A stretch of DNA of 64,000 nucleotides from Alphaproteobacteria bacterium. Its GTDB lineage: Bacteria; Pseudomonadota; Alphaproteobacteria; Rs-D84. Under the pieces are notes generated by a model. It was not told the DNA's origin, made no database searches, and saw only the letters and a program-made list of their open reading frames with translations. Positions 1 to 58,684 of the stretch are shown piece after piece. Position 1 is the first letter of the stretch; each line of letters starts with the position of its first letter. The translations under genes were made by a program, and so were the position numbers. Location: NCBI GenBank assembly GCA_015062445.1, contig SUUQ01000001.1, positions 62,001-126,000 on the forward strand, in the 5' to 3' direction.

Positions 1-36
1 CGCCAATTCTAAATCACGCAGTGTTCCAAATGACAT
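1..36 (-). CDS. 5' end of a gene, possibly phosphoglycerate kinase (partial)
   Basis: Twelve codons read from the edge, beginning ATG with AAGGA about 10 nt upstream, giving MSFGTLRDLELA. The good ribosome binding site and the divergent layout with pal support a real start. The opening resembles the first residues of phosphoglycerate kinases (FxTLxDLxxxGK), but twelve residues cannot decide this. The rest lies outside the window. Confidence 0.4.
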   Translation of the reverse strand, partial: MSFGTLRDLELA

Positions 37-49
37 TTTTTGTTTTTCC

Positions 50-78
50 TTGATATTTCACATATTTTATTGTACAAT
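50..78 (+). promoter_or_regulatory. sigma70-type promoter of pal
   Basis: TTGATA, a 17-nt spacer and TACAAT, placed 36 nt before the pal ATG. Confidence 0.6.
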
Positions 79-114
79 ACAGCACGAGCAACAGAAACTC
101 AAGGGAGTATTTTC

Positions 115-534
115 ATGAAAATTAAAAACTTTGCTTTGTTGGCTGGTGTCGCAGGATTGCTGGCTGCATGTGGCGGTTCTTCTAAAATCGTAGAACCAGC
201 CGATTTGAACGAACAACGTGTTTTCTTTGGTTTCAATTCATCTGAAATTTCCGAAGAAGCAAAAAACAACCTGTTGGGTCAGGCACTGTATATGAAAAAC
301 CACGAAGATGTAAAAATCCAAATCGCAGGTAACTGTGACGAACGTGGTTCAACAGAATACAACTTGGCATTGGGTGCACGTCGTGCAAACGCAGCAAAAG
401 AAGTGTTGGTAAACGACGGCATCTGTGCAAAACGTATCTCGACCATTTCATACGGTAAAGAACGTCCATTGGTTCAGGGCTCTGGCGAAGAAGTCTGGAA
501 ATGGAACCGTAATGCCACAACAACAGTTAAATAA
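115..534 (+). CDS. pal: Peptidoglycan-associated lipoprotein PAL
   Basis: Outer-membrane lipoprotein of the Tol-Pal envelope system that binds peptidoglycan and helps outer-membrane constriction. The 139-residue product starts with a lipoprotein signal whose lipobox LLAAC places the lipidated Cys near residue 20. Residues about 35-135 form an OmpA-like domain, including GNCDERGSTEYNLALGARRA, the PAL version of the diaminopimelate-binding segment. I chose the ATG at 115 because it follows GGGAG and starts the signal peptide; an upstream extension is unlikely. It stands alone here, without tolB or ybgF beside it, and ends at a strong terminator. Confidence 0.95.
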   Translation: MKIKNFALLAGVAGLLAACGGSSKIVEPADLNEQRVFFGFNSSEISEEAKNNLLGQALYMKNHEDVKIQIAGNCDERGSTEYNLALGARRANAAKEVLVNDGICAKRISTISYGKERPLVQGSGEEVWKWNRNATTTVK

Positions 535-555
535 TAATTGTTGAAAACATATCAA

Positions 556-584
556 AAACACCGGCAATTGCCGGTGTTTTTTTG
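556..584 (+). terminator. Intrinsic terminator after pal
   Basis: ACACCGGCAATTGCCGGTGT stem followed by a T run. Confidence 0.85.
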
Positions 585-611
585 TTTTTTCCGTACATGA
601 TAAATTTTTAT

Positions 612-636
612 AAAAAATGCCGGCATTTGCCGGCAA
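612..636 (-). terminator. Intrinsic terminator of parAB
   Basis: GCCGGCA/TGCCGGC stem with two-base loop; on the minus strand it is followed by a T run. A GAACATTTTTATT tail follows on the plus strand, as in several other copies of this repeat. Confidence 0.75.
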
Positions 637-648
637 TTTTGAACATTT

Positions 649-1527
649 TTATTTGGTTAATTTTTCAACCAATTCATGCAATTGTGTACGGGTCGAAAAC
701 GATAATGTTATCTGCCCTGCCCCACCACGACGTTCAGTTAACTTTACAGACACCCCCAAGGCAGCACGAACACGTGATTCAATATCACGAACAACCGATG
801 AATCGATTGTGTTTTGCGTATGATTGCGGGTCTGTTTAGACCGTGGCGCCGACTTTACCATTTTGTCAGTTGCGGCAACAGATAATTTTTCCGCAATGAT
901 TTTGTGTGCCAATTCTTCTGGATTTTCCGCAACTGCAATTGTACGTGCGTGCGATGCAGACAATTCACCCTGGCCGACCAAATTCTGGACAGATTCTGGC
1001 AATGCAGTTAACCGCAACATATTACGAATATAACTGTCCGATTTACCAATCAGACGTGCAACATCTGACAATTCATAATCACAACATTCCATCAGTTTTT
1101 TGTAGGCATTGGCCTCTTCTATTGGGTTCAGATTTTCACGTTGAACATTTTCAATCAATGCAATTTCTGCCGCATTGTTATCATCCATCGACTTAATCAG
1201 GGCGGGAATTTCAGTTAACCCAGCTATCTTGGATGCACGAAAACGACGTTCGCCCGCAACAATTTCATACATATGTGGGCGCCCCGATACAGAACGCAAT
1301 AAAATCGGCTGTAACACACCCTTTTCACGGATAGATGCCGCCAAATCAGACAATTCTGATTCTGAAAATGTTTTGCGTGGCTGGTCCGGATTCGCACCAA
1401 TCTGGGCCAGCGGTATCTGACGCACAACGACACGTTCAGTCGGTGCCAATAACGATATATCAGGCAATGCGCCACGTGATGCGCCCAATTCTGCCAAGCC
1501 ACGTCCCAATCCAAATTTATTCGCCAT
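649..1527 (-). CDS. parB: Chromosome partitioning protein ParB
   Basis: Centromere-binding CTP hydrolase that loads at parS sites and, with ParA, segregates the chromosome. 292 residues, normal for the family. It opens with the GRGLAELG segment; the ParB/Srx domain contains the C-box-like GERRFRAS. A helix-turn-helix follows (LSDVARLIGKSDSYIRNMLR), and a C-terminal dimerisation segment ends the protein. It overlaps the end of parA by 11 nt, so the two are translationally coupled. Confidence 0.95.
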   Translation of the reverse strand: MANKFGLGRGLAELGASRGALPDISLLAPTERVVVRQIPLAQIGANPDQPRKTFSESELSDLAASIREKGVLQPILLRSVSGRPHMYEIVAGERRFRASKIAGLTEIPALIKSMDDNNAAEIALIENVQRENLNPIEEANAYKKLMECCDYELSDVARLIGKSDSYIRNMLRLTALPESVQNLVGQGELSASHARTIAVAENPEELAHKIIAEKLSVAATDKMVKSAPRSKQTRNHTQNTIDSSVVRDIESRVRAALGVSVKLTERRGGAGQITLSFSTRTQLHELVEKLTK

Positions 1528-2299
1528 ATGTCCCCCCTGTGGTTCGTTCTACAACCTCGGTCGCAACACGCAAGTATGCCTGGGCGCCGGTTGAGTTAAA
1601 ATCATAAAATAATGCAGGTTTACCATGAGATGGTGCCTCGGACACACGGACATTGCGTGGTACAACCGTCTTGAACACCAAATCACCAAACGTCTTGCGT
1701 ACATCATCATCAACCGCACGTGTCAAACCATATCGCCGGTCATACATCGTCAATAACACCCCCAAAATAGACAAGTTTGGATTCCAACGTTCACGCACAA
1801 CAGATATTGTGTCTGTCAACTGCTGAACCCCTTCGAGGGCAAAAAATTCGCACTGCAGTGGAATTATAACACTGTCGGCCGCCGTTAATGCATTTATTGT
1901 CAAAAAACCCAACGCAGGCGGACAATCCAATAAAATATAATCATAGTATTCCATTATTGGCAACAATGCATCACGCAGACGAAATTCACGATTTTGCATA
2001 TCCAACAAATCAATATCTGCACCCGCCAAGGCCTGGGATGACGGCAACAGATGTAACCCAGGTACGGCAGTTGTCAAAATATTTTCAGACACCGGAGAAT
2101 TTCCCATAATAACATCATAAACATTTTGTTTATAACCGCCACGTTCAAACCCCAGTCCAGTCCCAGCATTACCCTGTTGATCCAAATCAACCAACAAAAC
2201 ACGTTGTTTTATCGCCGCCAAGGACGCACCAATATTTATCGCAGTTGTGGTCTTGCCCACCCCGCCCTTTTGATTCGCAAATGCAATAATCTGTGTCAT
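1517..2299 (-). CDS. parA: Chromosome partitioning ATPase ParA
   Basis: ParA/Soj-type deviant Walker ATPase that acts on nucleoid DNA to move ParB-parS complexes. The P loop KGGVGKTT near residue 11 is of the two-lysine ParA type, and DCPPALGFLT is the switch II/Walker B region. I start at the ATG at 2299 (MTQIIAFANQ), giving 260 residues, because GGAAAGGGAAAA precedes it; the open frame extends 18 codons upstream without support. Forms an operon with parB. The usual neighbour mnmG is not next to rsmG here but about 13 kb away. Confidence 0.95.
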   Translation of the reverse strand: MTQIIAFANQKGGVGKTTTAINIGASLAAIKQRVLLVDLDQQGNAGTGLGFERGGYKQNVYDVIMGNSPVSENILTTAVPGLHLLPSSQALAGADIDLLDMQNREFRLRDALLPIMEYYDYILLDCPPALGFLTINALTAADSVIIPLQCEFFALEGVQQLTDTISVVRERWNPNLSILGVLLTMYDRRYGLTRAVDDDVRKTFGDLVFKTVVPRNVRVSEAPSHGKPALFYDFNSTGAQAYLRVATEVVERTTGGTYGE

Positions 2300-2404
2300 T
2301 TTTCCCTTTCCATTTATCGGTATCAGTTTATAAAAACCCACTGATTCGGTCAAGCATTTATAATTAACATTAAAAAAACATTAAAAATCAATCATTTATC
2401 AACA

Positions 2405-2418
2405 ATTTCATATGAAAT
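2405..2418. promoter_or_regulatory. parS-like palindrome 1
   Basis: Perfect palindrome ATTTCATATGAAAT just upstream of parA. The inner part resembles the parS consensus TTTCACGTGAAA with two central changes. A ParB site is an inference from location and similarity. Confidence 0.35.
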
Positions 2419-2453
2419 ATCACTTTTTTTTCACAAGAATATATTTTATAAAA

Positions 2454-2478
2454 AAACACCGGCATTTGCCGGTCTTTT
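2454..2478 (-). terminator. Intrinsic terminator downstream of rsmG
   Basis: ACCGGCATTTGCCGGT stem with a run of Ts on the minus strand; it also has a CTTTTTGAACATTTT tail on the plus strand. Confidence 0.7.
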
Positions 2479-2535
2479 TGAACATTTTATTGTATTTTTT
2501 TATAAAAACACATTATTTTCAACAATTTAACAGAT

Positions 2536-2549
2536 ATTTCACATGAAAT
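2536..2549. promoter_or_regulatory. parS-like palindrome 2
   Basis: ATTTCACATGAAAT differs from the parS core TTTCACGTGAAA at one position. It abuts the rsmG stop codon, in the parA-rsmG gap where alphaproteobacterial parS sites often cluster. Confidence 0.5.
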
Positions 2550-3109
2550 CACCGGTCAAAACGCACAGAAATTATAAAACCATCGCCTGTTTTTGACGGT
2601 GTTAAATCATACAAAAACGAATAATGCTGTTTTGCAGCATCAATTTCCCCGGCAATTTCACGACCTTTTAATAAAAAAAGCCGGCATTTTGTTGATGCAA
2701 CATAGTCCATTATCTTGGTTAACGACGCAAAGGCACGTGCTGTAAACACAATATCATGCGTTTTTGCCGGCAAATCCCGGACAAAATTTTCAACACGACC
2801 ATGATAAATCGTTAAATTATCCAGTCCCAATGCTTCTTTGACAGCGGTTAAAAATGCAACCTTTTTACCAATCGATTCAATGCACGTCACATGCCAGCCC
2901 AATATAGCCAACACAACACCAGGAAAGCCGGCACCACTGCCCAAATCAACAACACGAACATCTGATGGCAAAATGTCCGCCAGTTGGGCAGAATCTGCAA
3001 AATGACGATTTTCAATATCATTCAGTGTACTGGGGGCAACCAGGTTCATTCGCCCCGACCATTCACGCAGCAAGGCCGCATACTGTTCAAATTTGACTTT
3101 TTTACTCAT
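2549..3109 (-). CDS. rsmG: 16S rRNA (guanine-N7)-methyltransferase RsmG
   Basis: SAM-dependent methylation of G527 in the 530 loop of 16S rRNA. 186 residues. The Rossmann SAM-binding motif is VVDLGSGAGFPGVVLAI near residue 53, followed by the family's conserved ITCIE-like acidic strand (VTCIES). Located upstream of parAB as in many bacteria, but without mnmG in front. Its first codons overlap the promoter of the divergent TPR gene. Stop is TGA. Confidence 0.93.
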   Translation of the reverse strand: MSKKVKFEQYAALLREWSGRMNLVAPSTLNDIENRHFADSAQLADILPSDVRVVDLGSGAGFPGVVLAILGWHVTCIESIGKKVAFLTAVKEALGLDNLTIYHGRVENFVRDLPAKTHDIVFTARAFASLTKIMDYVASTKCRLFLLKGREIAGEIDAAKQHYSFLYDLTPSKTGDGFIISVRFDR

Positions 3110-3121
3110 AATTAGTATTCT
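3093..3121 (+). promoter_or_regulatory. Promoter of the TPR gene, implying a leaderless mRNA
   Basis: TTGACT, 17-nt spacer, TATTCT. Transcription would start about 3128, two or three bases before the ATG at 3131. No Shine-Dalgarno sequence is visible. Confidence 0.6.
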
Positions 3122-3130
3122 AGCATAATC

Positions 3131-4747
3131 ATGAGAAAAATAGAAAGCATATTTATCACATCGTGCCTGTTTGCAACAATCGCAATCACAGGAACTGCAA
3201 TTTGGAATTCTGTAAATCTGTCAGGACAGAGAGCACAATATAAATTCCCCGAAACAAAATACGGCGCATTCTTGGCGGCACAGCATGCGGTCTATGTTAA
3301 CGATTTTGATACCGCAAAAGAACTGACAAAAACACTGGGTGATGTCGAGCATACAATCGTAAAAAACACAATGTTTATTACAGATTTCCTGGGCGGTAAA
3401 ATGCCAGATAACGCACAGGAATTAAAAAAAGAAAAAAGTATGCCAGCACAGTTTATATACGACGCATACCTGGTGCAAAATGATAACTGGAAAGAACTGC
3501 ACAGCAGACATAAGACAGACGAGTCCGCATTGGCCGCACCACTGAGAATATGGCCAGCAATCGCAAATAACTGGCGAACAAACACGTTTAAGTTTATCGA
3601 CAATCTGCCAACCAATAATTCATGGAAATCCTTTATACGGGGGCAAATTTATGCAGAACTGGGCGAAGCAGACAAGGCAGCAGAACACTTTGCAAATGTG
3701 GCACCAGATTTCATGAACATAAATGATTATTTGTATATCTTGTCGTTCTATACACACCATGGTTTTGCGGACAAGGCACAGACACTGATTAACGAATTTA
3801 CAGCCAGACCAGGTGGGATGTTCATGCTGGGCTTTACAAATATTCCGGATTGGTCTGTGTACAGCGGATATAAAAACCAACTGGCATTCAGTTTGGTGCA
3901 AAATGTTTCACACACACAGATTATGATGTATTCTGATTTGGCAATGCTGATGCTGAGATTCGCAGAAATTACAGCGCCAGAATTTGCAAATCACAACAGT
4001 ACAATCGACTATTACCTGGGGAACTTTTTCTTTAACAATACAGGAAATTGGAAAAAGCATTTTGATAACATATCAGATGACAGCCCGTTCAAACTGTTCG
4101 CAGTGATGCGTGAAACAGAAAGAACAAATAACATTAAAAAACTGGAAAAAGTTTTGCAGCAACACCCACTGTTTGTGCCGGCGGTTAATAAACTGGTCGC
4201 ATACAATATACAACACGGAAATAAACGCAAGGCATTGAAAATCATTAACAATGCACTGAAAGACAACAACCTGACGGAAACAGGACATGCATTTTTTGTT
4301 AAAAGCAGGGCACAGGTACACTTTGCGTTTGGCGATTTGGATGCCGCACAGGCAGATATTCATGACGCAGCAGCAGTGCTGTTTATGGATCCAGAAATAC
4401 TGTCACTGCAGGCAAAAATTTGGGCCAGTCAAAACCGAGAATTAAATACTGCATACGAATACGCAATGACACTGGTACGACAAAACCCAACAGATATCTT
4501 GGCATGGGATACGCTGGGGTGCGTGGTGGCAAAACGTGAAGGTGTTGATGCCGCACTGGATGTGCTGGAACGGGTTGGCGAAGTATCAGAAACATGTTCG
4601 GCACTGTTTGAACATATTGGGGATATGTATGTCGCAAAAGGTGATAAAGAACATGCATTGGATGCGTATATGCGTGCAATCGAATTGTCTGATGATGGAT
4701 TAACCGTTGTCCCAACAATAGAAAGAAAAATAAGGAAAATAAAATGA
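3131..4747 (+). CDS. Membrane-anchored TPR protein of unknown function
   Basis: 538 residues. A single hydrophobic segment at about 7-27 looks like an uncleaved signal anchor, so most of the protein should be periplasmic. The C-terminal third shows helical repeats of TPR type (for example AWDTLGCVVAKREGVDAALDV and the pair starting LFEHIGDMYVAKGDKEHALD). The middle is all-helical but too divergent for me to place. Its stop overlaps the gpsA start (ATGA), suggesting coupling, but that does not reveal its role. I do not recognise a specific family. Confidence 0.8.
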   Translation: MRKIESIFITSCLFATIAITGTAIWNSVNLSGQRAQYKFPETKYGAFLAAQHAVYVNDFDTAKELTKTLGDVEHTIVKNTMFITDFLGGKMPDNAQELKKEKSMPAQFIYDAYLVQNDNWKELHSRHKTDESALAAPLRIWPAIANNWRTNTFKFIDNLPTNNSWKSFIRGQIYAELGEADKAAEHFANVAPDFMNINDYLYILSFYTHHGFADKAQTLINEFTARPGGMFMLGFTNIPDWSVYSGYKNQLAFSLVQNVSHTQIMMYSDLAMLMLRFAEITAPEFANHNSTIDYYLGNFFFNNTGNWKKHFDNISDDSPFKLFAVMRETERTNNIKKLEKVLQQHPLFVPAVNKLVAYNIQHGNKRKALKIINNALKDNNLTETGHAFFVKSRAQVHFAFGDLDAAQADIHDAAAVLFMDPEILSLQAKIWASQNRELNTAYEYAMTLVRQNPTDILAWDTLGCVVAKREGVDAALDVLERVGEVSETCSALFEHIGDMYVAKGDKEHALDAYMRAIELSDDGLTVVPTIERKIRKIK

Positions 4748-5607
4748 AAACAGGTGTAATTGGCGCAGGTGCATGGGGAACAGCACTGGCAATAACTGTG
4801 GCACGTGGAAACAATGACGTTGTTTTGTGGTCATATGATAGTGAATATAAACACTTTGACAATGTAGATATGCCAAAAAATATCCGTATAACAGGTAATA
4901 TAGCAGATATAAAAAGTGCTGAGGTGTGGCTGATTGTGACACCGGCGGCATTTATGCGGGAAACACTGAAAAAAGCAAAAGTCCACTATGACGGACAGCC
5001 AATTATCATATGTACCAAGGGGGCAGAAAGTTCAACAGGACAGTTTATGTCCGAAATATTGCAGACAGAACTGCCAGAATGTGTCGATTTTGGCGTACTG
5101 TCTGGACCACAATTTGCAGCAGAAGTTGCACGTGGTGTGCCAACAGGTTCAACACTGGCCGGAACAAACAATACGATTGTGGCAGGCATGCAGATACTGA
5201 ACAAACTGTATCTGGAAGCCAGCCAGGACATAATCGGAACAGAACTGTGCGGTGTGGGCAAAAATGCAGTTGCACTGATTTGCGGATACAACAGTGTCGC
5301 CGCAGGTGGTGAAAATGAACGTGCAATGATTTTCACACGTGCATGGAACGAAGTTGTAAAGCTGGGGATTGAAATGGGTGGACAAGAACATTCATTTCTG
5401 GGACTGTGCGGAATAGGGGATTTATTCCTGTCTGCAACATCCGTGACCAGTCGTAATTTCGCAGGCGGCATGGCAATTGCACAGGGTAAAGCACCCGAAG
5501 GTACAGTCGAAGGAATTTTTGCACTGAATGGATTGATTGAACGGGCAAACAGTTTGAATATCGACACACCTGTTTTAGTGGACATGAAAAAGAAAATGAA
5601 ATTGTAA
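4744..5607 (+). CDS. gpsA: Glycerol-3-phosphate dehydrogenase [NAD(P)+]
   Basis: Reduces dihydroxyacetone phosphate to sn-glycerol-3-phosphate for phospholipid synthesis. The N-terminal Rossmann motif is GAGAWGTALA at residue 7. The catalytic-lysine segment is GVGKNAVALICGY, followed by the family signature region with GLCGIGDLFLSATS and SRNF. At 287 residues it is about 40-50 shorter than usual (near 330), mainly from compact loops and a short C terminus; all core motifs are present. Translationally coupled to the TPR gene. Confidence 0.92.
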   Translation: MKTGVIGAGAWGTALAITVARGNNDVVLWSYDSEYKHFDNVDMPKNIRITGNIADIKSAEVWLIVTPAAFMRETLKKAKVHYDGQPIIICTKGAESSTGQFMSEILQTELPECVDFGVLSGPQFAAEVARGVPTGSTLAGTNNTIVAGMQILNKLYLEASQDIIGTELCGVGKNAVALICGYNSVAAGGENERAMIFTRAWNEVVKLGIEMGGQEHSFLGLCGIGDLFLSATSVTSRNFAGGMAIAQGKAPEGTVEGIFALNGLIERANSLNIDTPVLVDMKKKMKL

Positions 5608-5610
5608 AAA

Positions 5611-5634
5611 AATACCGGCATTTGCCGGTGTTTT

Positions 5635-5636
<2 letters not shown>
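5611..5636. terminator. Bidirectional terminator between gpsA and mreB
   Basis: ACCGGCA TT TGCCGGT stem with T runs on both strands. It overlaps the mreB stop codon. Confidence 0.8.
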
Positions 5637-6714
<1,078 letters not shown>

Positions 6715-6761
6715 CTATAATTCACGATTGACAAAAAATCAAGGCATCCACATAAATTTAT

Positions 6762-6791
6762 TTGATTTATTACAGATTGTGGTATTATATA
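6762..6791 (+). promoter_or_regulatory. rnpA promoter, implying a leaderless mRNA
   Basis: TTGATT with TATTAT (15-nt spacer) or TATATA (18-nt spacer). The predicted start site falls on or next to the rnpA ATG at 6798; there is no Shine-Dalgarno sequence. Confidence 0.5.
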
Positions 6792-6797
6792 GCCGCT

Positions 6798-7142
6798 ATG
6801 AAACGAAATACAATTAAAAATCATGTCGACTTTGCAATGGGGGATAACGACCCTGTGGCACGCTGTGGATTTTTCCTGGTGCGGGCAAAAACAGCAAAAT
6901 TCCCAGATGACCCACGGTTCGGTATTATCGTTACAAAAAAAAACTTTAAGCATGCAGTCGACAGAAATCGGGCAAAAAGATTGCTGAGGGACTGGATTGA
7001 GTTTAACGAAAACATGATGCGTGATGATTGGGACTATGTTTTCGTTATCAGACGTGATATATTGGATGCGACCAGAACAGACGGACGGGTCGCAATGAAA
7101 AAAGCACTGAATTACCTGCGTAAACAAGAAATAAACGCATAA
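6798..7142 (+). CDS. rnpA: Ribonuclease P protein component
   Basis: Protein subunit of RNase P, which processes tRNA 5' ends. 114 residues from the ATG at 6798. The hallmark RNR motif is [13 protein letters not shown], and the aromatic cleft region precedes it ([18 protein letters not shown]). rpmH, which normally sits directly upstream, is absent; mreB is divergent instead. yidD follows 13 nt later, as in the common rnpA-yidD arrangement. Confidence 0.93.
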
Positions 7143-7155
7143 TATAAATTCTGCC

Positions 7156-7371
7156 GTGAAAAAAATTTCAATCGCATTAATCAATCTGTATCAACGTGCA
7201 ATTTCCCCATTGTTCGGGGGCAGGGCAGTTTGCAGATTCACACCAACATGCAGCGAATATACCAAAATCGCAATCAGACGATACGGGGTGATGCATGGAA
7301 TATGGCTGGGGATAAAAAGAATTGTACGTTGCAACCCGTGGGGCGGATGCGGATACGACCCGGTACCTTGA
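7156..7371 (+). CDS. yidD: Membrane protein insertion efficiency factor YidD
   Basis: Small amphipathic factor associated with YidC-mediated membrane insertion. 71 residues starting with GTG. Diagnostic features are [21 protein letters not shown] and the C-terminal [12 protein letters not shown]. It follows rnpA closely and its stop overlaps the -35 box of the accB promoter. Confidence 0.95.
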
Positions 7372-7395
7372 CAATCGGGCGGATTGTGATACAAT
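7368..7395 (+). promoter_or_regulatory. Strong promoter of accBC
   Basis: Consensus TTGACA, 16-nt spacer, TACAAT; the -35 overlaps the yidD stop. Confidence 0.7.
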
Positions 7396-7438
7396 TTTAT
7401 GCTGTGCATGATGTTAAACAAAAATATAAGGATTAAAT

Positions 7439-7882
7439 ATGTCTTTTCGTGCAACCGTTGAATCTATGTCAAAAATCATGGATGATATGGGAATTACTGA
7501 ACTGGACCTGGAACGTCAATTCTTGTTCGGGGTATATCGCAAGCATATACACCTGTCAAAACAACAAACGGTCGCAGTCGCACCAACAGCCGCACTGAAC
7601 AATGATGCAAAGTGTATCAATAATGATGCAGATAAAAATACATTTTGCGGATGTGCATTGAAATCGCCAATGGTCGGGGTCGTGTATCTGGCACCAGAAC
7701 CAGGGGCAGAACCATTTGTTACAATTGGTAAATCTGTCAAGGCCGGCGATACAGTTGCACTGGTCGAAGCAATGAAAACATTTAACCCAATCAAGGCAGA
7801 TAAAGACGGAACTGTGAAAGAAATACTGGTTTCTGATGGGGCGGCGGTCGAATTTGACCAACCATTAATCGTAATCGAATAA
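7439..7882 (+). CDS. accB: Biotin carboxyl carrier protein of acetyl-CoA carboxylase
   Basis: Carries carboxybiotin from AccC to the carboxyltransferase in the first step of fatty acid synthesis. 147 residues: a helical N-terminal segment, a linker with Ala/Asn, then a biotinyl domain from about residue 70. The biotin site is EAMKTFN, with the canonical A-M-K in place of the more common EAMKLMN context. AAGGA precedes the ATG. accC follows 7 nt later. Confidence 0.95.
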   Translation: MSFRATVESMSKIMDDMGITELDLERQFLFGVYRKHIHLSKQQTVAVAPTAALNNDAKCINNDADKNTFCGCALKSPMVGVVYLAPEPGAEPFVTIGKSVKAGDTVALVEAMKTFNPIKADKDGTVKEILVSDGAAVEFDQPLIVIE

Positions 7883-7889
7883 TAAAAAA

Positions 7890-9236
7890 ATGTCACAAAT
7901 AAAAAAAGTATTGGTCGCAAATCGTGGTGAAATCGCACTGCGTATAATTCGTGCATGTCGTGATATGGGCATACGAACTGTTGCAATTTATTCAACCGCA
8001 GACCGGGATGCCATGCATGTGCAACTGGCAGATGAATCTGTCTGTATTGGACCGGCAGCCGTGCGGGATTCATACCTGAACGAATCTGCGATTCTGACGG
8101 CTGCGCTGCTGACCAATGCAGATGCAATCCACCCAGGATATGGATTCCTGTCCGAACGGGCAGACTTTGCACGCAAAGTCGAACAGCACAATATGATTTG
8201 GGTCGGCCCATCACCAGATATGATCGATAAAATGGGCGACAAGGTTAATGCAAAAAAAACCGCAATCGAATGCGGGCTGCCTGTGGTACCGGGGTCTGAT
8301 GGGGCAATAGAATCACTGGAACACGCACTGAGTATCGCAGAAAAAATTGGATACCCGATTATGCTGAAAGCCGCAGCCGGTGGTGGTGGACGTGGAATGA
8401 GACCGGTCGAAACCCCCGCAGATATGGCCGAAGCATTTAACTTGACCAAAAACGAAGCAAAATCTGCGTTTGGTGATGATACACTGTATATGGAAAAGCT
8501 GTTAACACATCCACGACATATTGAATTTCAGGTACTGGGGGATAAACACGGAAATGTCGTTATATTTGGCGAACGTGATTGTTCGCTGCAGAGACGTAAC
8601 CAAAAGGTTATGGAAGAATGCCCCGCCGCAATTCTGTCGCAAAAACAGCGGGATGATATGATAGAGATTTGCAAGGCGGCGGCAAAAAAAATGGGTTATA
8701 CAAACGCAGGTACGTTCGAATTTATGTTCGAAGATGGTAAATTCTATTTCTTGGAAATGAATACCAGATTACAGGTCGAACATCCGGTGACAGAAATGGT
8801 TTATGGGGTTGACCTGGTGCGGGAACAAATTCGTGTGGCCGCCGGGGAAAAATTAGGGTACACACAATCAAATGTTATCCCAAATGGCCACGCAATCGAA
8901 TTTCGTATCAATGCAGAAGACCCAGAAACCTTTGTGCCAAACCCAGGAAAAATCACACTGTATGCACCATCGGGGGGGATGGGGGTTCGTGTGGACAGTG
9001 CCGTCTATACAGGATATACAATTCCACCAACATATGATTCGATGATTGCAAAACTGGTTGTGCATGCACAAAACAGACCTGCATGCATCATGCGGGCAAC
9101 ACGTGCACTGGATGAATTCGTTATCGAAGGGGTAAAAACAACCATACCACTGCAACAGCGACTGTTGAAAAACAAAGATGTAAAACAGTTGAACTTTGAT
9201 AACAAATGGTTGGAAAAATTCCTGAAAAAAGATTAA
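7890..9236 (+). CDS. accC: Biotin carboxylase subunit of acetyl-CoA carboxylase
   Basis: ATP-dependent carboxylation of biotin on AccB. 448 residues, standard length. The N-terminal domain begins VLVANRGEIALRIIRACRDMG; the glycine-rich ATP-grasp loop is KAAAGGGGRGMR. The catalytic block is FLEMNTRLQVEHPVTEMV. Second gene of the accBC operon; ends at a terminator. Confidence 0.97.
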   Translation: MSQIKKVLVANRGEIALRIIRACRDMGIRTVAIYSTADRDAMHVQLADESVCIGPAAVRDSYLNESAILTAALLTNADAIHPGYGFLSERADFARKVEQHNMIWVGPSPDMIDKMGDKVNAKKTAIECGLPVVPGSDGAIESLEHALSIAEKIGYPIMLKAAAGGGGRGMRPVETPADMAEAFNLTKNEAKSAFGDDTLYMEKLLTHPRHIEFQVLGDKHGNVVIFGERDCSLQRRNQKVMEECPAAILSQKQRDDMIEICKAAAKKMGYTNAGTFEFMFEDGKFYFLEMNTRLQVEHPVTEMVYGVDLVREQIRVAAGEKLGYTQSNVIPNGHAIEFRINAEDPETFVPNPGKITLYAPSGGMGVRVDSAVYTGYTIPPTYDSMIAKLVVHAQNRPACIMRATRALDEFVIEGVKTTIPLQQRLLKNKDVKQLNFDNKWLEKFLKKD

Positions 9237-17565: not shown

Positions 17566-17592
17566 CCCTATTCCCGCCTGCGCGGGAATGAC
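17566..17592 (-). repeat. Right inverted repeat of the GIY-YIG element
   Basis: Exact reverse complement of the left repeat at 17171-17197. Confidence 0.9.
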
Positions 17593-17690
17593 AAAAGATA
17601 TTGGTGCATAAACAAACCTAAACCCTGCGCGGGAATGACAAAAGATATTGGTGCATAAACAAACCTGAACCCTGCGCGGGAATGATAAAT
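17581..17690 (+). repeat. 47-bp tandem repeat
   Basis: CGCGGGAATGACAAAAGATA units begin at 17581 and 17628, with a partial third at 17675; one base differs between the full copies. Confidence 0.85.
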
Positions 17691-51029: not shown

Positions 51030-52667
51030 ATGGATAATACAGAAAAAGATATCTTGGGAAATCTGAATGTGGATGGCCAACTGTCGATTCCAGTGGGGCT
51101 GGAAAATGCAGAGTCCAAAGATATTATCGATTATTTGTTTTCAAATGGAAATCGACTGCTGACCGTGACAGGGGCGATGTTCGAACTGCCACGTGATACG
51201 CAGAGTATTGTTGCATACTTTTCAGGTGGTGAAATTATTATTTCCAGAACACACAGGTATGATGGACGGGTGTTGGCATTTGTTGAACTGCTGAAAAAAC
51301 GTGGGAAAAAAATCCGGGAACCATTTTATTCAGACCTGGGGTTGGTGGCGAATATTTACAAGTCTTATGAATTAAAACTGGGGGCAGGGGGACGTGCCAG
51401 AACAGATTTTGATAACCAAATGCAAAAGGACTTTGTTGATATTATCGCCAAGGCCGCATCGCAAAAGGTATCTGACGTTCATATAGAGGTTGCAGACCAA
51501 ACAACAATTTTCTTTCGTATAGATGGTAGTATGCAACCTGTACTGGAATATAATTCACAGTGGGGGGAATCGTTTGTGCGTGCAGCATTTGCATCGTCTG
51601 ATATGTCAAATGCAAACTATGCACAAAATGAATATCAGTCAGCACAAAAAGATGGACGCACACCATTGCGTGGAACCAAGGATTTATATCTGCCAAGTGG
51701 GGTGCTGGCGGTGCGTATGCAGTTTAACCCAATCGCATTCGGCAGCAGATATGTGGTTATGCGTCTGTTGTATGATAATCCGTCCGAAGGTATTAAGACA
51801 GAACAAGAATTTGGACCGTATGAGCAAAAAATGCTGGCACGTATGCGGTCGTTCCCAACAGGATTGGTTATTGTCGCAGGTCCAACCAGTTCAGGTAAAT
51901 CAACGACACTGGTGCGGAATATGTCACTGATGCTGAAAGAAAGAAATTATGAAATTAACCTGATTACAGTGGAAAATCCGGTTGAACAGAAAATATTCGG
52001 CGCACGACAGATGCCGGTCGTTAATACAACAAACGAAGAACAACGTGAAGAAAAATATGTCGAAGCACTGGCGGCGGCACTGCGAAGTGACCCGGATACG
52101 TTGATGGTGGGGGAAATTCGTACGTTGGCAGCGGCTGAACTGACTGTGCGGGGGGCATTGTCTGGACATAATGTGTGGACAACACTGCATGCGAATTCTG
52201 CAATGGCGGCACTGACCAGATTATTAGACCTGGGGGTCGAACCGTTTAAGTTAAAAGAAGAAACTTTGATGCGGGGACTGGTGTCAATGCGGTTGTTCAA
52301 AAAACTGTGTCCGTATTGTCGGGAACGGTTGATTAATCACCCAGAACGTGGCGAATATAAACGTATGATGGATATGTATGGTGAACTGGGGGTAAATCAG
52401 GCATTTGTCCGGGGACTGGGGTGTTCACACTGCAAAGGTACAGGAACAATCGGACGTATCAAAGCAGGGGAAATTATTATCACAAACAGTGAATTTTTAA
52501 GATTGGCACTGGCGGGGGATACAGACGGGGCAATTCGATACTGGTTAGAAGAATTAAATGGCAGAACGTTAAAAGAAGCGGCGGCGGCACTGGTTCTGCA
52601 GGGAATTATCGGGGTCGATGAACTGGAACGATGGGTCGGACATGTGGATGAACCTGGGGCATACTGA
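51030..52667 (+). CDS. pilQ: Type IVb pilus assembly ATPase (PilQ of the thin-pilus type; GspE/PilB/PilT superfamily)
   Basis: 545 residues. Walker A GPTSSGKSTT near 286; Walker B LMVGEIRTLAAAE; His box TTLHANSAMAALTRLLDLG. A tetracysteine zinc motif (CPYCRERL ... GCSHCKGTG) is diagnostic of assembly ATPases. Hexameric motor at the inner membrane. Stop overlaps the pilR start. Confidence 0.93.
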   Translation: MDNTEKDILGNLNVDGQLSIPVGLENAESKDIIDYLFSNGNRLLTVTGAMFELPRDTQSIVAYFSGGEIIISRTHRYDGRVLAFVELLKKRGKKIREPFYSDLGLVANIYKSYELKLGAGGRARTDFDNQMQKDFVDIIAKAASQKVSDVHIEVADQTTIFFRIDGSMQPVLEYNSQWGESFVRAAFASSDMSNANYAQNEYQSAQKDGRTPLRGTKDLYLPSGVLAVRMQFNPIAFGSRYVVMRLLYDNPSEGIKTEQEFGPYEQKMLARMRSFPTGLVIVAGPTSSGKSTTLVRNMSLMLKERNYEINLITVENPVEQKIFGARQMPVVNTTNEEQREEKYVEALAAALRSDPDTLMVGEIRTLAAAELTVRGALSGHNVWTTLHANSAMAALTRLLDLGVEPFKLKEETLMRGLVSMRLFKKLCPYCRERLINHPERGEYKRMMDMYGELGVNQAFVRGLGCSHCKGTGTIGRIKAGEIIITNSEFLRLALAGDTDGAIRYWLEELNGRTLKEAAAALVLQGIIGVDELERWVGHVDEPGAY

Positions 52668-53740
52668 TGTTAAATAAATTGGAATTATTGTATGCAAAGT
52701 TAATGTTTCGGACAAATACCGAAAAACGTATGGCCATCTGTCGCAAGTTGGCATCGCTGTTGCGTAATGACTTTACACTGATTGATGCGCTGGAACGACT
52801 GGAAATGGTCGAATCAAAAAATGGAAAAAAACCAAACGAACCATTTGCAATCGTTATGCGAGAATGGCAAAAAAATCTGGAACGTGGTATGACTTTTTCC
52901 GAGGCAACACGTGGTTGGGTGCCACCAGAAGAAACCCTGTTGGTGACCAGTGGTAATCTGTCAAATCTGGTTGTGGCACTGGAAAATGTTGGGCGGGTCG
53001 TTGATGGGACACAACGTATCAGACGTGCAATGACAGGGGCAATCGCATATCCACTGTTTTTGTTGCTGTTGACGTTCGCAATTATTATGATGGTGGGAAT
53101 TTATCTGGTGCCGCCATTGATGGATGTCGCAACGACAAATATCGTTTGGACAGGAACTGCAAAGTCGCTGATTGTGTTGTCGGATTGGGCAAATGAATAC
53201 TGGTATAGTTTCTTGATTGGTTTTGCAGGTGTTGTAGGGGTTATATGGCTAAGCTTGCCAAATTGGACCGGACGTATGCGGACAGTTGCAGATAATCTGC
53301 CCCCGTGGAGTGTGTATAAAATTCAGGTTTCGGTCGGCTGGTTGATGAGTTTGGCGGCCATGGTCGGGGCAGGGGTCACAATACCAGATGCAATGCGGAT
53401 GTTGGCAGATAATGCAAACAGGTATTTGCGTAATATCCTGGAAAAAGCACTGCGATTTGTCGCAAATGGTGAAAATCTGGGGCGGGCCCTGGAACATACA
53501 AAAAGCAATTTCCCAGATTCTGAAATTATCGGCGATTTGACAATTTATGCAGATATGAATGGTTTTGAAGAAAACTTGAACCAGGTTGCCAATGATTATC
53601 TGAACGAGTCTGTTCGTAAAATGGAAAAAATATCCAACATCATGAACAGTCTGGGGATTTTGTTAGTGTCGTTGATAATCGCCTGGGTGGTGTTTGGTAC
53701 GTTCCAGATGCAGGAACAAATCACAGCTGTCCTATCATAA
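52667..53740 (+). CDS. pilR: Type IV pilus inner-membrane platform protein (PilR/GspF family)
   Basis: 357 residues. Two T2SSF repeats: RKLASLLRNDFTLIDALERL near the start and LAAMVGAGVTIPDAMRMLADN in the second half. Three to four membrane segments include the final one, ILLVSLIIAWVVFGTFQM. In R64-type clusters the prepilin gene pilS follows; here a repeat array follows instead. Confidence 0.9.
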   Translation: MLNKLELLYAKLMFRTNTEKRMAICRKLASLLRNDFTLIDALERLEMVESKNGKKPNEPFAIVMREWQKNLERGMTFSEATRGWVPPEETLLVTSGNLSNLVVALENVGRVVDGTQRIRRAMTGAIAYPLFLLLLTFAIIMMVGIYLVPPLMDVATTNIVWTGTAKSLIVLSDWANEYWYSFLIGFAGVVGVIWLSLPNWTGRMRTVADNLPPWSVYKIQVSVGWLMSLAAMVGAGVTIPDAMRMLADNANRYLRNILEKALRFVANGENLGRALEHTKSNFPDSEIIGDLTIYADMNGFEENLNQVANDYLNESVRKMEKISNIMNSLGILLVSLIIAWVVFGTFQMQEQITAVLS

Positions 53741-53743
53741 AAA

Positions 53744-54299
53744 TAAATTATAATAATTCATCTACGAGCGGGGGCGACAACTCATGTAACGTCTTGTACA
53801 CTTCGTTGTCGCCCCCGTCTCGTATCTAAATCATTCTAATTTATTTTACGCATCTGATGTGCTGTGTGCGGGAACGGGCAACTTATGTAACGTTATGTAC
53901 ACTGCGATGCCCGATTTTGTTTTATCTAAATCATTCTAATTTATTTTTTTCTGAGCCAAGTTTTGTAGTTGGGGTTGGGGCAACTCATGTAGCATTTTGT
54001 ACACATCGTTGTCGCCCCCGTCTCGTATCTAAATCATTCTAATTTATTTTACGCACCTGATGTGTTGTGTGTGGGAATGGGCATCTTATGTAACGTTATG
54101 TACACTGCGATGCCCGATTTTGTTTTATCTAAATCATTCTAATTTATTTTACGCACCTAATGTGCTGTGTGTGTGGGGGGCACAATGGATACCGGCCGCC
54201 GCCGGTATGACGATAGTGTGTGTATGGTGCTGCAATGACAAGGGGTGGGGCCCACCCCAGCACCGAGCGCCCCCCTGTCTCGTATCTAAATCATTATTA
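53744..54299 (+). repeat. Tandem array R1 of ~101-nt hairpin units
   Basis: Four clear units (core starts at 53782, 53883, 53984, 54086) and a fifth, altered one. Each has a core TYATGTARC(G)..TGTACAC flanked by arms that pair: CGGGGGCGACAA/TTGTCGCCCCCG, CGGGCA/TGCCCG, GGGGCAAC/GTTG..CCCC and GGGCATC/GATGCCC. A spacer with CTAAATCATTCTAATTTATT follows. Units alternate in type (1 with 3, 2 with 4). The fifth unit keeps GGGGGGC/GCCCCCC arms but contains other hairpins, including a CCGGCCGCCGCCGG palindrome. No gene in this stretch. Confidence 0.85.
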
Positions 54300-54325
54300 A
54301 AATCCCCCGGTTGGGGGCTTTTTCT
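54300..54325. terminator. Terminator between array R1 and the RusA-like gene
   Basis: CCCCC GGTT GGGGG with a T run on the plus strand. Confidence 0.65.
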
Positions 54326-57666: not shown

Positions 57667-58337
57667 TGCAATTTTCACGGGATTGGTTTTTTGATTTAGA
57701 CAGGTGTTTGCGTGCGGCGGGGTTAGACAGCGATGTGCAATCGTTTGATGAAATACTGGAAAACCTGCGTGCACGGAAAATTTATGATGCAGATACGTTT
57801 GCAGCACACTGTGTGTATGTAATTCTGGCAGGCGGATTTTCACAAAAAACAGCAAAAGTTAAACACTTGGAAATAATGACCGTTTTGACCGCAGTTGGGG
57901 CAGATTTTGAAATGCTGATTCATTTGTTTAATAACAAAAATAAAATTAATGCGATTTGTAAAATCTGGAATAATCGAAAACAGTTGCGTGATGGGTATTA
58001 TGAACAAATGACGTTGGATGACAGGTTAAAATATCTGGAAAAATTGCCGCATATCGGAAAAATAACTGCAAACCATTTGGCACGAAATCTGGGCGAAGAT
58101 ATTGTAAAGTATGATGTATGGATTCAACGACTGGGGTGTGCGTTTGCAGGTAAAAAATTGGTGGTCGATAATGCAAAATTGTCGCCGGAAATCAAAGATG
58201 CCTGTGATGCGATGTTTGCGCATTTGGTAGGGCAGACAGGTTTACCACGGGGGTATATTGATGTGGTTCTGTGGAAATCTTGTCAGGTAAAATTAATTTC
58301 TATGGACGATTACTTGCACAAACCGCCGGTCATGTAG
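57666..58337 (+). CDS. HhH-GPD-like DNA glycosylase, function uncertain
   Basis: 223 residues. YVILAGGFSQKTAKVKHL and LEKLPHIGKITANHLARNL followed by KYDVWIQRLG fit the helix-hairpin-helix plus Asp arrangement of HhH-GPD glycosylases. The Lys used by bifunctional lyases is replaced (G-K-I-T-A), suggesting a monofunctional enzyme. No Fe-S cluster cysteines. The last 11 residues (MDDYLHKPPVM) are encoded by the first unit of repeat array R2, so the natural C terminus has probably been altered. ung is the next gene, which fits a base-excision pair. Confidence 0.65.
   Translation: MQFSRDWFFDLDRCLRAAGLDSDVQSFDEILENLRARKIYDADTFAAHCVYVILAGGFSQKTAKVKHLEIMTVLTAVGADFEMLIHLFNNKNKINAICKIWNNRKQLRDGYYEQMTLDDRLKYLEKLPHIGKITANHLARNLGEDIVKYDVWIQRLGCAFAGKKLVVDNAKLSPEIKDACDAMFAHLVGQTGLPRGYIDVVLWKSCQVKLISMDDYLHKPPVM
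58265..58276 (+). repeat. 12-bp direct repeat, left copy
   Basis: GGTTCTGTGGAA, repeated exactly at 58648-58659; the two copies bracket array R2. Confidence 0.75.
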
Positions 58338-58647
58338 CGAGTAGTACACTCCCTTTGGTTTGTGCTGCGTACTCGTCTCATATAAATTAATTTTAAAAAA
58401 GTATGGACGATTACTTGCACAAACCGCCGGTCATGTAGCGAGTAGTACACTCCCTTTGGTTTGTGTTGCGTACTCGTCTCATATAAATTAATTTAAAAAA
58501 AGTATGGACGATTACTTGTACAAACCGTCGGTCATGTAGCGAGTAGTACACTCCCTTTGGTTTGCGCTGCGTACTCGTCTCATATAAATTAATTTTAAAA
58601 AATGTATAGACGATTACTTGCACAAACCGTCGGTCATGTAGCGAGTA
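58300..58647 (+). repeat. Tandem array R2 of ~101-nt hairpin units
   Basis: Four units, cores (TCATGTAGCGAG) starting at 58330, 58431, 58532 and 58634, the last truncated. Arms GCACAAACC/GGTTTGTGC enclose the core, which ends GTACACT; then GTACTCGTCTCATATAAATT and a short AT spacer. Period, core motif and the CGTCTCRTAT element match array R1 although the arms differ. Unit 1 begins inside the upstream gene. No gene within. Confidence 0.88.
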
Positions 58648-58684
58648 GGTTCTGTGGAAGGGGGCAGCAGGGGTTAATAAAACT

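Follow-up and report, generated by a model that had tools for sequence, protein, structure and literature searches.

What is the array of tandem hairpins that stands directly behind a T2SSF/PilC-like gene in this alphaproteobacterial genome, and which of its two strands is the one that folds? We examined the array in the window, that is the whole 64,000-nt stretch of DNA, and in the genomes of relatives. All genomes used here are metagenome assemblies with simple gene calls, and 72 kb are masked in one contig of the source genome (G000; ~1.05 Mb in 15 contigs).

Anatomy of two arrays in the window

The array R1 (53738-54299) contains four copies of a hairpin whose loop, ATGTARC-N4-TGTACAC, never changes while its pairing arms vary. 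The original prediction described a hairpin core repeated at about 101 nt, and four exact cores do begin at 53784, 53885, 53987, and 54088 (spacing 101/102/101 nt). The two alternating unit types that it distinguished, with GGGGGCGACAAC and GGGCATC arms, are both real, and at a period of 203 the array reads as two copies matching at ~95%. Its parts are:

52667-53740, + strand: T2SSF/PilC-like gene (Pfam T2SSF); the first palindrome opens with its TAA stop at 53738-53740
53738-53847, + strand: R1 unit 1, a complete imperfect palindrome (read from the sequence; covariance-model match G000:C9:115739-115848, E 5.9e-22)
53848-53872, + strand: linker between R1 units, a degenerate terminator-like hairpin ACGCATCTGATGTGCTGTGTGCGGG (sequence; the same linker occurs in other arrays)
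53873-53947, + strand: R1 unit 2, 5'-truncated, GGGCATC-type arms, core 53885-53902 (sequence and covariance model)
53976-54050, + strand: R1 unit 3, 5'-truncated, GGGGGCGACAAC-type right arm, core 53987-54004 (sequence and covariance model)
54051-54150, + strand: linker and R1 unit 4, 5'-truncated, GGGCATC type, core 54088-54105 (sequence and covariance model)
54151-54299, + strand: degenerate fifth unit, broken by another inverted repeat of the GGATACCGGCC..GCCGGTATGACG type (sequence)
54303-54322, + strand: ordinary intrinsic terminator after R1, common to the convergent gene (sequence)

Unit 1 is made of an outer AT-rich stem, T-C mismatches, the GGGGGCGACAAC arm, and the loop core at 53784-53801. 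Pairing arms had been described for every unit. This holds in full for unit 1, which is a palindrome of ~107 nt, but units 2-4 keep only the core and the right half, lack the outer left arm, and pair through the inner stem alone. The sole remnant of the fifth unit is the right-arm end CTGTCTCGTATCTAAATCATT; the repeat that interrupts it, at 54187-54215, is unrelated, and short repeats of this kind (CCTGCGCGGGAATGACA type; GGATACCGGCC..GCCGGTATGACG) also stand in tandem at 17577-17689. In the other arrays that we compared, the linkers are copies of the terminator stem, and we therefore read an array as a duplication of half an element together with its terminator. The tandem array would thus be secondary, each new copy having lost the outer left arm.

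A second array in the window, array 2 (58287-58650), belongs to the same family and has different arms, with three cores within 58301-58650:

58287-58395, + strand: array 2 unit 1, a divergent family member with arms GCACAAACC/GGTTTGTGC, core 58332-58349 (core match and orthologue comparison)
58396-58650, + strand: array 2 units 2 and 3, followed by part of a fourth, repeating every 101 nt (core matches, periodicity)

Here the upstream DNA-glycosylase-like gene takes its final codons and its TAG stop (58335-58337) from unit 1, which rewrites the C-terminus and parts the gene from ung. The ancestral end, ...QQGLIKL* overlapping ung, has been replaced by ...LISMDDYLHKPPVM*, with the stop within the loop. 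Clean empty sites are found in some near relatives, and about 17 nt gave way to the insertion. Filled and empty sites, when compared, show no target duplication, and for the array-2 site we rejected a clean transposition of the kind that duplicates its target. In two species (loci L213 and L223) another tandem repeat (GACCACTACCCCGTC..CCCCTTCGCCAG..) lies at the same gene junction, which therefore looks like a hot spot for different repeats. The in-frame extension of a reading frame is confined to this one site; nearly all other elements lie after the stop codon.

Covariation and the strand that folds better

The full unit is an imperfect palindrome of nearly constant length whose arm letters are almost free. 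What is conserved is the apical loop YATGTA...TACACT, the paired T-C mismatch blocks (TATCTA facing TATCTA), and the overall length. Across 38 diverse elements, 93.9% of cells pair. The covariation score of this set is 0.655, versus 0.170 +/- 0.010 when shuffled and at most 0.127 when slid, and at a single orthologous locus (after efp, 19 sequences/species) it is 0.483 versus 0.155. These values strongly support the proposed constraint on a hairpin with a recognised loop. Arms that fail to co-vary, which the original prediction had named as the observation to set against it, did not occur: both sides have changed in 29 of 36 pairs.

Some individual elements depart from the usual form. At locus L094 (5690-5830, after yebC), the outer arms have their usual orientation and the core is inverted, as if the loop had been flipped between the inner arms. 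At L126, L134, and L151, the palindrome reaches into the coding sequence, since the final codons of the gene before it are complementary to its right outer arm.

The mismatches in the stem are strongly asymmetric. When the arms are compared on the gene strand, the census gives 384 T-C/C-T, 170 A-C/C-A, 88 G-T/T-G, and 18 purine-purine mismatches, and outside the conserved motifs pyrimidine-pyrimidine mismatches outnumber purine-purine ones in 49 elements, against 2 the other way. Nearly all mismatches on the gene strand are T-C or A-C, which lets the complementary strand fold better. On the bottom strand T-C becomes G-A and A-C becomes G-T, with tandem 5'-GA-3'/5'-GA-3' where TATCTA faces TATCTA. 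Folding energies favour the bottom strand in 74 of 82 elements when computed with RNA parameters and in 79 of 82 with DNA parameters; in other genera and families they do so in 20 of 21. These counts are not fully independent, since the elements share ancestry. Strand-biased mutation (C to T on the leading strand) was rejected as the source of the T-C excess, for it would yield G-T and not T-C. The G-A and G-T pattern is what selection for a bottom-strand fold would predict. The original prediction had offered a recombination site, a protein-bound hairpin, or an RNA; across these options the strand evidence leans towards the bottom strand.

Spread, gene ends and the search for a partner

Core matches in the window number 7, where 0.02 are expected in shuffles. 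A genome-wide core search, suggested together with the original prediction, returned 30 exact cores in G000 and none for the reversed-pattern control, and a covariance model places 14 first-unit loci in this genome. Near-identical copies stand behind unrelated genes. In named collections, the relatives of G000 are MAGs of gut Alphaproteobacteria, Candidatus Enterousia onthequi among them. By covariance model we find the element in 52 of the 59 genomes of the genus, with 1 to 43 matches each (these counts include truncated units and reverse readings of one palindrome), and, at the level of the order, in 130 of 201 genomes, most of which belong to the same family. In other genera the loop takes the form GGTCATGTA...TACACTCCC, which is also the form of array 2.

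The first unit of an array starts at the stop codon of the upstream gene, in sense orientation to it, and its first letters form or abut the stop. In 147 of 164 arrays, a sense reading frame stops within -60..+8 of the core (with TAA in 138), and most of the others follow a short gene such as rpsR. The genes that recur upstream, whose names come from a reading of their proteins and not from a family search, are efp, dnaN, rpoA, yebC, ftsK, secretin, rpsM, rpsK, rpsR, acyl-CoA synthetase, and outer-membrane proteins; the element is also found between rpsM and rpsK, inside the operon. R1 had been thought to occupy the place of the pilin genes in a thin-pilus operon. This idea fails on two counts. 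The element follows many unrelated genes (efp, rpsR, rpsM, rpoA, dnaN, ftsK, yebC, and outer-membrane genes among them), and behind the same pilC-like gene other species show a short intergenic region of the ordinary kind. Specifically, 7 of 30 species carry the element after this T2SSF gene, with differing arm classes and, in 2 of the 7, an earlier stop given by the element itself. Many species carry the element at the same gene ends, and genomes with few copies retain the efp site, which suggests a kept function rather than pure mobility.

Placement also follows the replication strand. All 13 detected gene-associated arrays of G000 are sense to a leading-strand gene, as are all 14 gene-associated elements of a second genome, G086, where a fifteenth detected place is the reverse reading of one of them. 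Each genome alone gives only p near 0.01-0.02, because ~72% of G000 genes are already leading. On contigs with at least two elements the orientations are never mixed among the matches listed (contig counts were read by hand); if elements are independent, the probability of this is 4e-12 at 72% leading and only 1e-4 at 90%. In G086 the elements keep to a single segment of the chromosome: all lie in C2:14-221 kb and in C3, with none in the 489-kb C1. G000 seems to be divided into an arc of strong GC skew, where the elements lie, and an arc with almost none; at about 1-9000 of the window (G000:C9 60-70 kb) the GC skew passes from weakly negative to strongly positive.

Our search for a partner covered three protein families: Y1 transposase, reverse transcriptase, and tyrosine recombinase. 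The Y1/RAYT transposase (PF01797) is present in 1 of the 59 genus genomes and absent from G000. Reverse transcriptase is missing from several high-copy genomes and was set aside, as its presence does not match element copy number. The general PF00589 model finds two near-universal proteins of ~300 aa (XerC/XerD size) and prophage-sized integrases, and with only this universal pair and prophage-like enzymes, tyrosine recombinases were rejected as well. A search of G000 for a larger autonomous relative gave only one partial extra match, and matches in the viral collection look like chance, lying in unrelated sequence. Against Rfam, the window has no match at the gathering threshold, and ten element loci searched at a permissive threshold gave none above gathering. 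Lastly, we rejected a role as intrinsic terminator. Such a terminator closes a transcription unit and has a G+C-rich stem with a U tract right behind it; here the stem beside the T-rich end consists of A+T, R1 has a terminator of its own behind it, and the element also sits between rpsM and rpsK.

Explanations and known systems

Our best explanation, to which we give a probability of about 0.42, is that the bottom-strand DNA hairpin is acted on by a putative factor. The recognised form would be the hairpin of the bottom (template-polarity) strand, in which T-C reads as G-A and A-C as G-T. A factor of the host or of a mobile element may act on this hairpin, as REPs or attC sites are acted on, and its action could lead to occasional spread to the ends of leading-strand genes and to homogenisation within a genome. 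Covariation, bottom-strand stability, the stop-codon position, the existence of filled and empty sites, and the range of 1-43 matches per genome count for this explanation, as do the sense and leading-strand placement and our finding no antisense promoter candidate beside R1. Counting against it are the lack of a transposase or recombinase partner among the families searched, the missing target duplication, and the inverted core of L094. A further point against it is that the strand exposed as lagging-strand template would be the top one and not the bottom one.

The main rival is a function of the sense mRNA, a possibility to be taken seriously even though we think it unlikely: a 3'-UTR or intercistronic hairpin at the stop codon that would block 3' exonucleases or serve as a processing site, like transcribed REPs, and mark growth genes. 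The strict sense orientation and stop-codon position fit it well, as does conservation at efp, rpsR, rpsM, rpoA, and dnaN and inside the rpsM-rpsK operon, and R1 would be transcribed, since a separate terminator follows it. However, the sense mismatches are the unfavourable U-C and A-C, with U-U rare, 74 of 82 elements fold less stably on the sense strand, and lagging-strand genes lack the element in the two genomes examined (G000, G086). A structured antisense RNA made from the bottom strand would account for the G-A and G-T(U) pattern, which suits an RNA fold. Yet the right flanks are not conserved past the element, we found no bottom-strand promoter candidate beside R1, the element is found inside ribosomal operons, and there is no Rfam match, and we regard this reading as quite improbable.

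Two further explanations dispense with a recognised hairpin. Templated self-correction (quasipalindrome repair) could hold a functionless palindrome symmetrical while rare rearrangement spreads it; the right arms that copy the gene's coding end at L126, L134, and L151 point this way, and the truncations and linkers of the arrays resemble template switching. We find this improbable: such repair would remove mismatches, whereas across genera the loop and the length are retained and T-C mismatches stay at fixed positions. Plain tandem slippage or a chance repeat without a conserved hairpin finds its one argument in the R1 array, which is a tandem duplication, and this we consider secondary. For the element itself slippage is refuted by the covariation controls, and recurrence with covariation through the genome, the genus, and the family leaves it a practically negligible chance.

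Returning to the bottom-strand DNA hairpin, we can outline a more specific and, in our judgement, rather unlikely form of it. In a family-wide system, a putative factor would recognise the folded single-stranded hairpin of template polarity at leading-strand stop codons in one chromosome segment, in an attC- or REP-like manner without integron integrase or RAYT, possibly coupled to the ends of replication or transcription. Whatever its role, the element is a well-bounded natural experiment, in which structure is kept and sequence is free at core-gene stop codons of a widespread uncultured gut lineage. With dozens of filled and empty sites, this family allows the folded strand to be inferred from sequence alone. 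It also raises a testable question: by what are such hairpins recognised, in a reduced genome that has neither the known REP enzymes nor those of integrons?

Like MITEs, the elements are short, non-coding, and dispersed, with inverted ends and variable copy number; they differ in having no parent element found in G000, no target duplication, and arms free in sequence. Integron attC sites lie after the stop codon, in the orientation of the gene. It is the bottom-strand hairpin of attC that is used (PMC8876359), and the bottom-strand hairpin of our element likewise adjoins the stop codon. In contrast to attC, the consensus of 38 elements has no GTTRRRY/RYYYAAC end boxes, the loop is conserved where that of attC is variable, what is gained is the element and not a gene cassette, and no integron-integrase pattern was seen, as judged with the general PF00589 model.

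The closest likeness is to REPs and RPEs. REPs are palindromes of 20-40 bp, one end of which carries an unpaired GTAG or CGTC tag; they mostly lie shortly behind a gene, no more than 20 bp from the ORF 3' end, and in some cases provide the stop codon (PMC3733652). Both are dispersed palindromes, single or clustered, extragenic and near gene 3' ends. BIMEs combine alternating unit types, which recalls the two types of R1. The present element, however, is ~107 nt long with a conserved apical loop and freely co-varying arms. It lacks a conserved unpaired end tag (the consensus ends are TAAATAAAT/ATTTATTT, and GTAG occurs only inside the loop), and it is strictly sense and leading-strand. GTAG REPs go together with a RAYT (Y1) transposase, whose gene is absent from 58 of the 59 genus genomes. 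Insertion within ORFs is what RPEs are known for (PMC3733652), whereas these elements stand at gene ends. Both are palindromes of reduced alphaproteobacterial genomes, and RPEs may extend a coding sequence in frame, which here is seen at array 2 alone; the comparison with RPE families was made by description and not by sequence. We thus read R1 as belonging to a previously undescribed family of palindromic DNA elements of ~107 nt that is REP/RPE-like, the RPE likeness being one of description.
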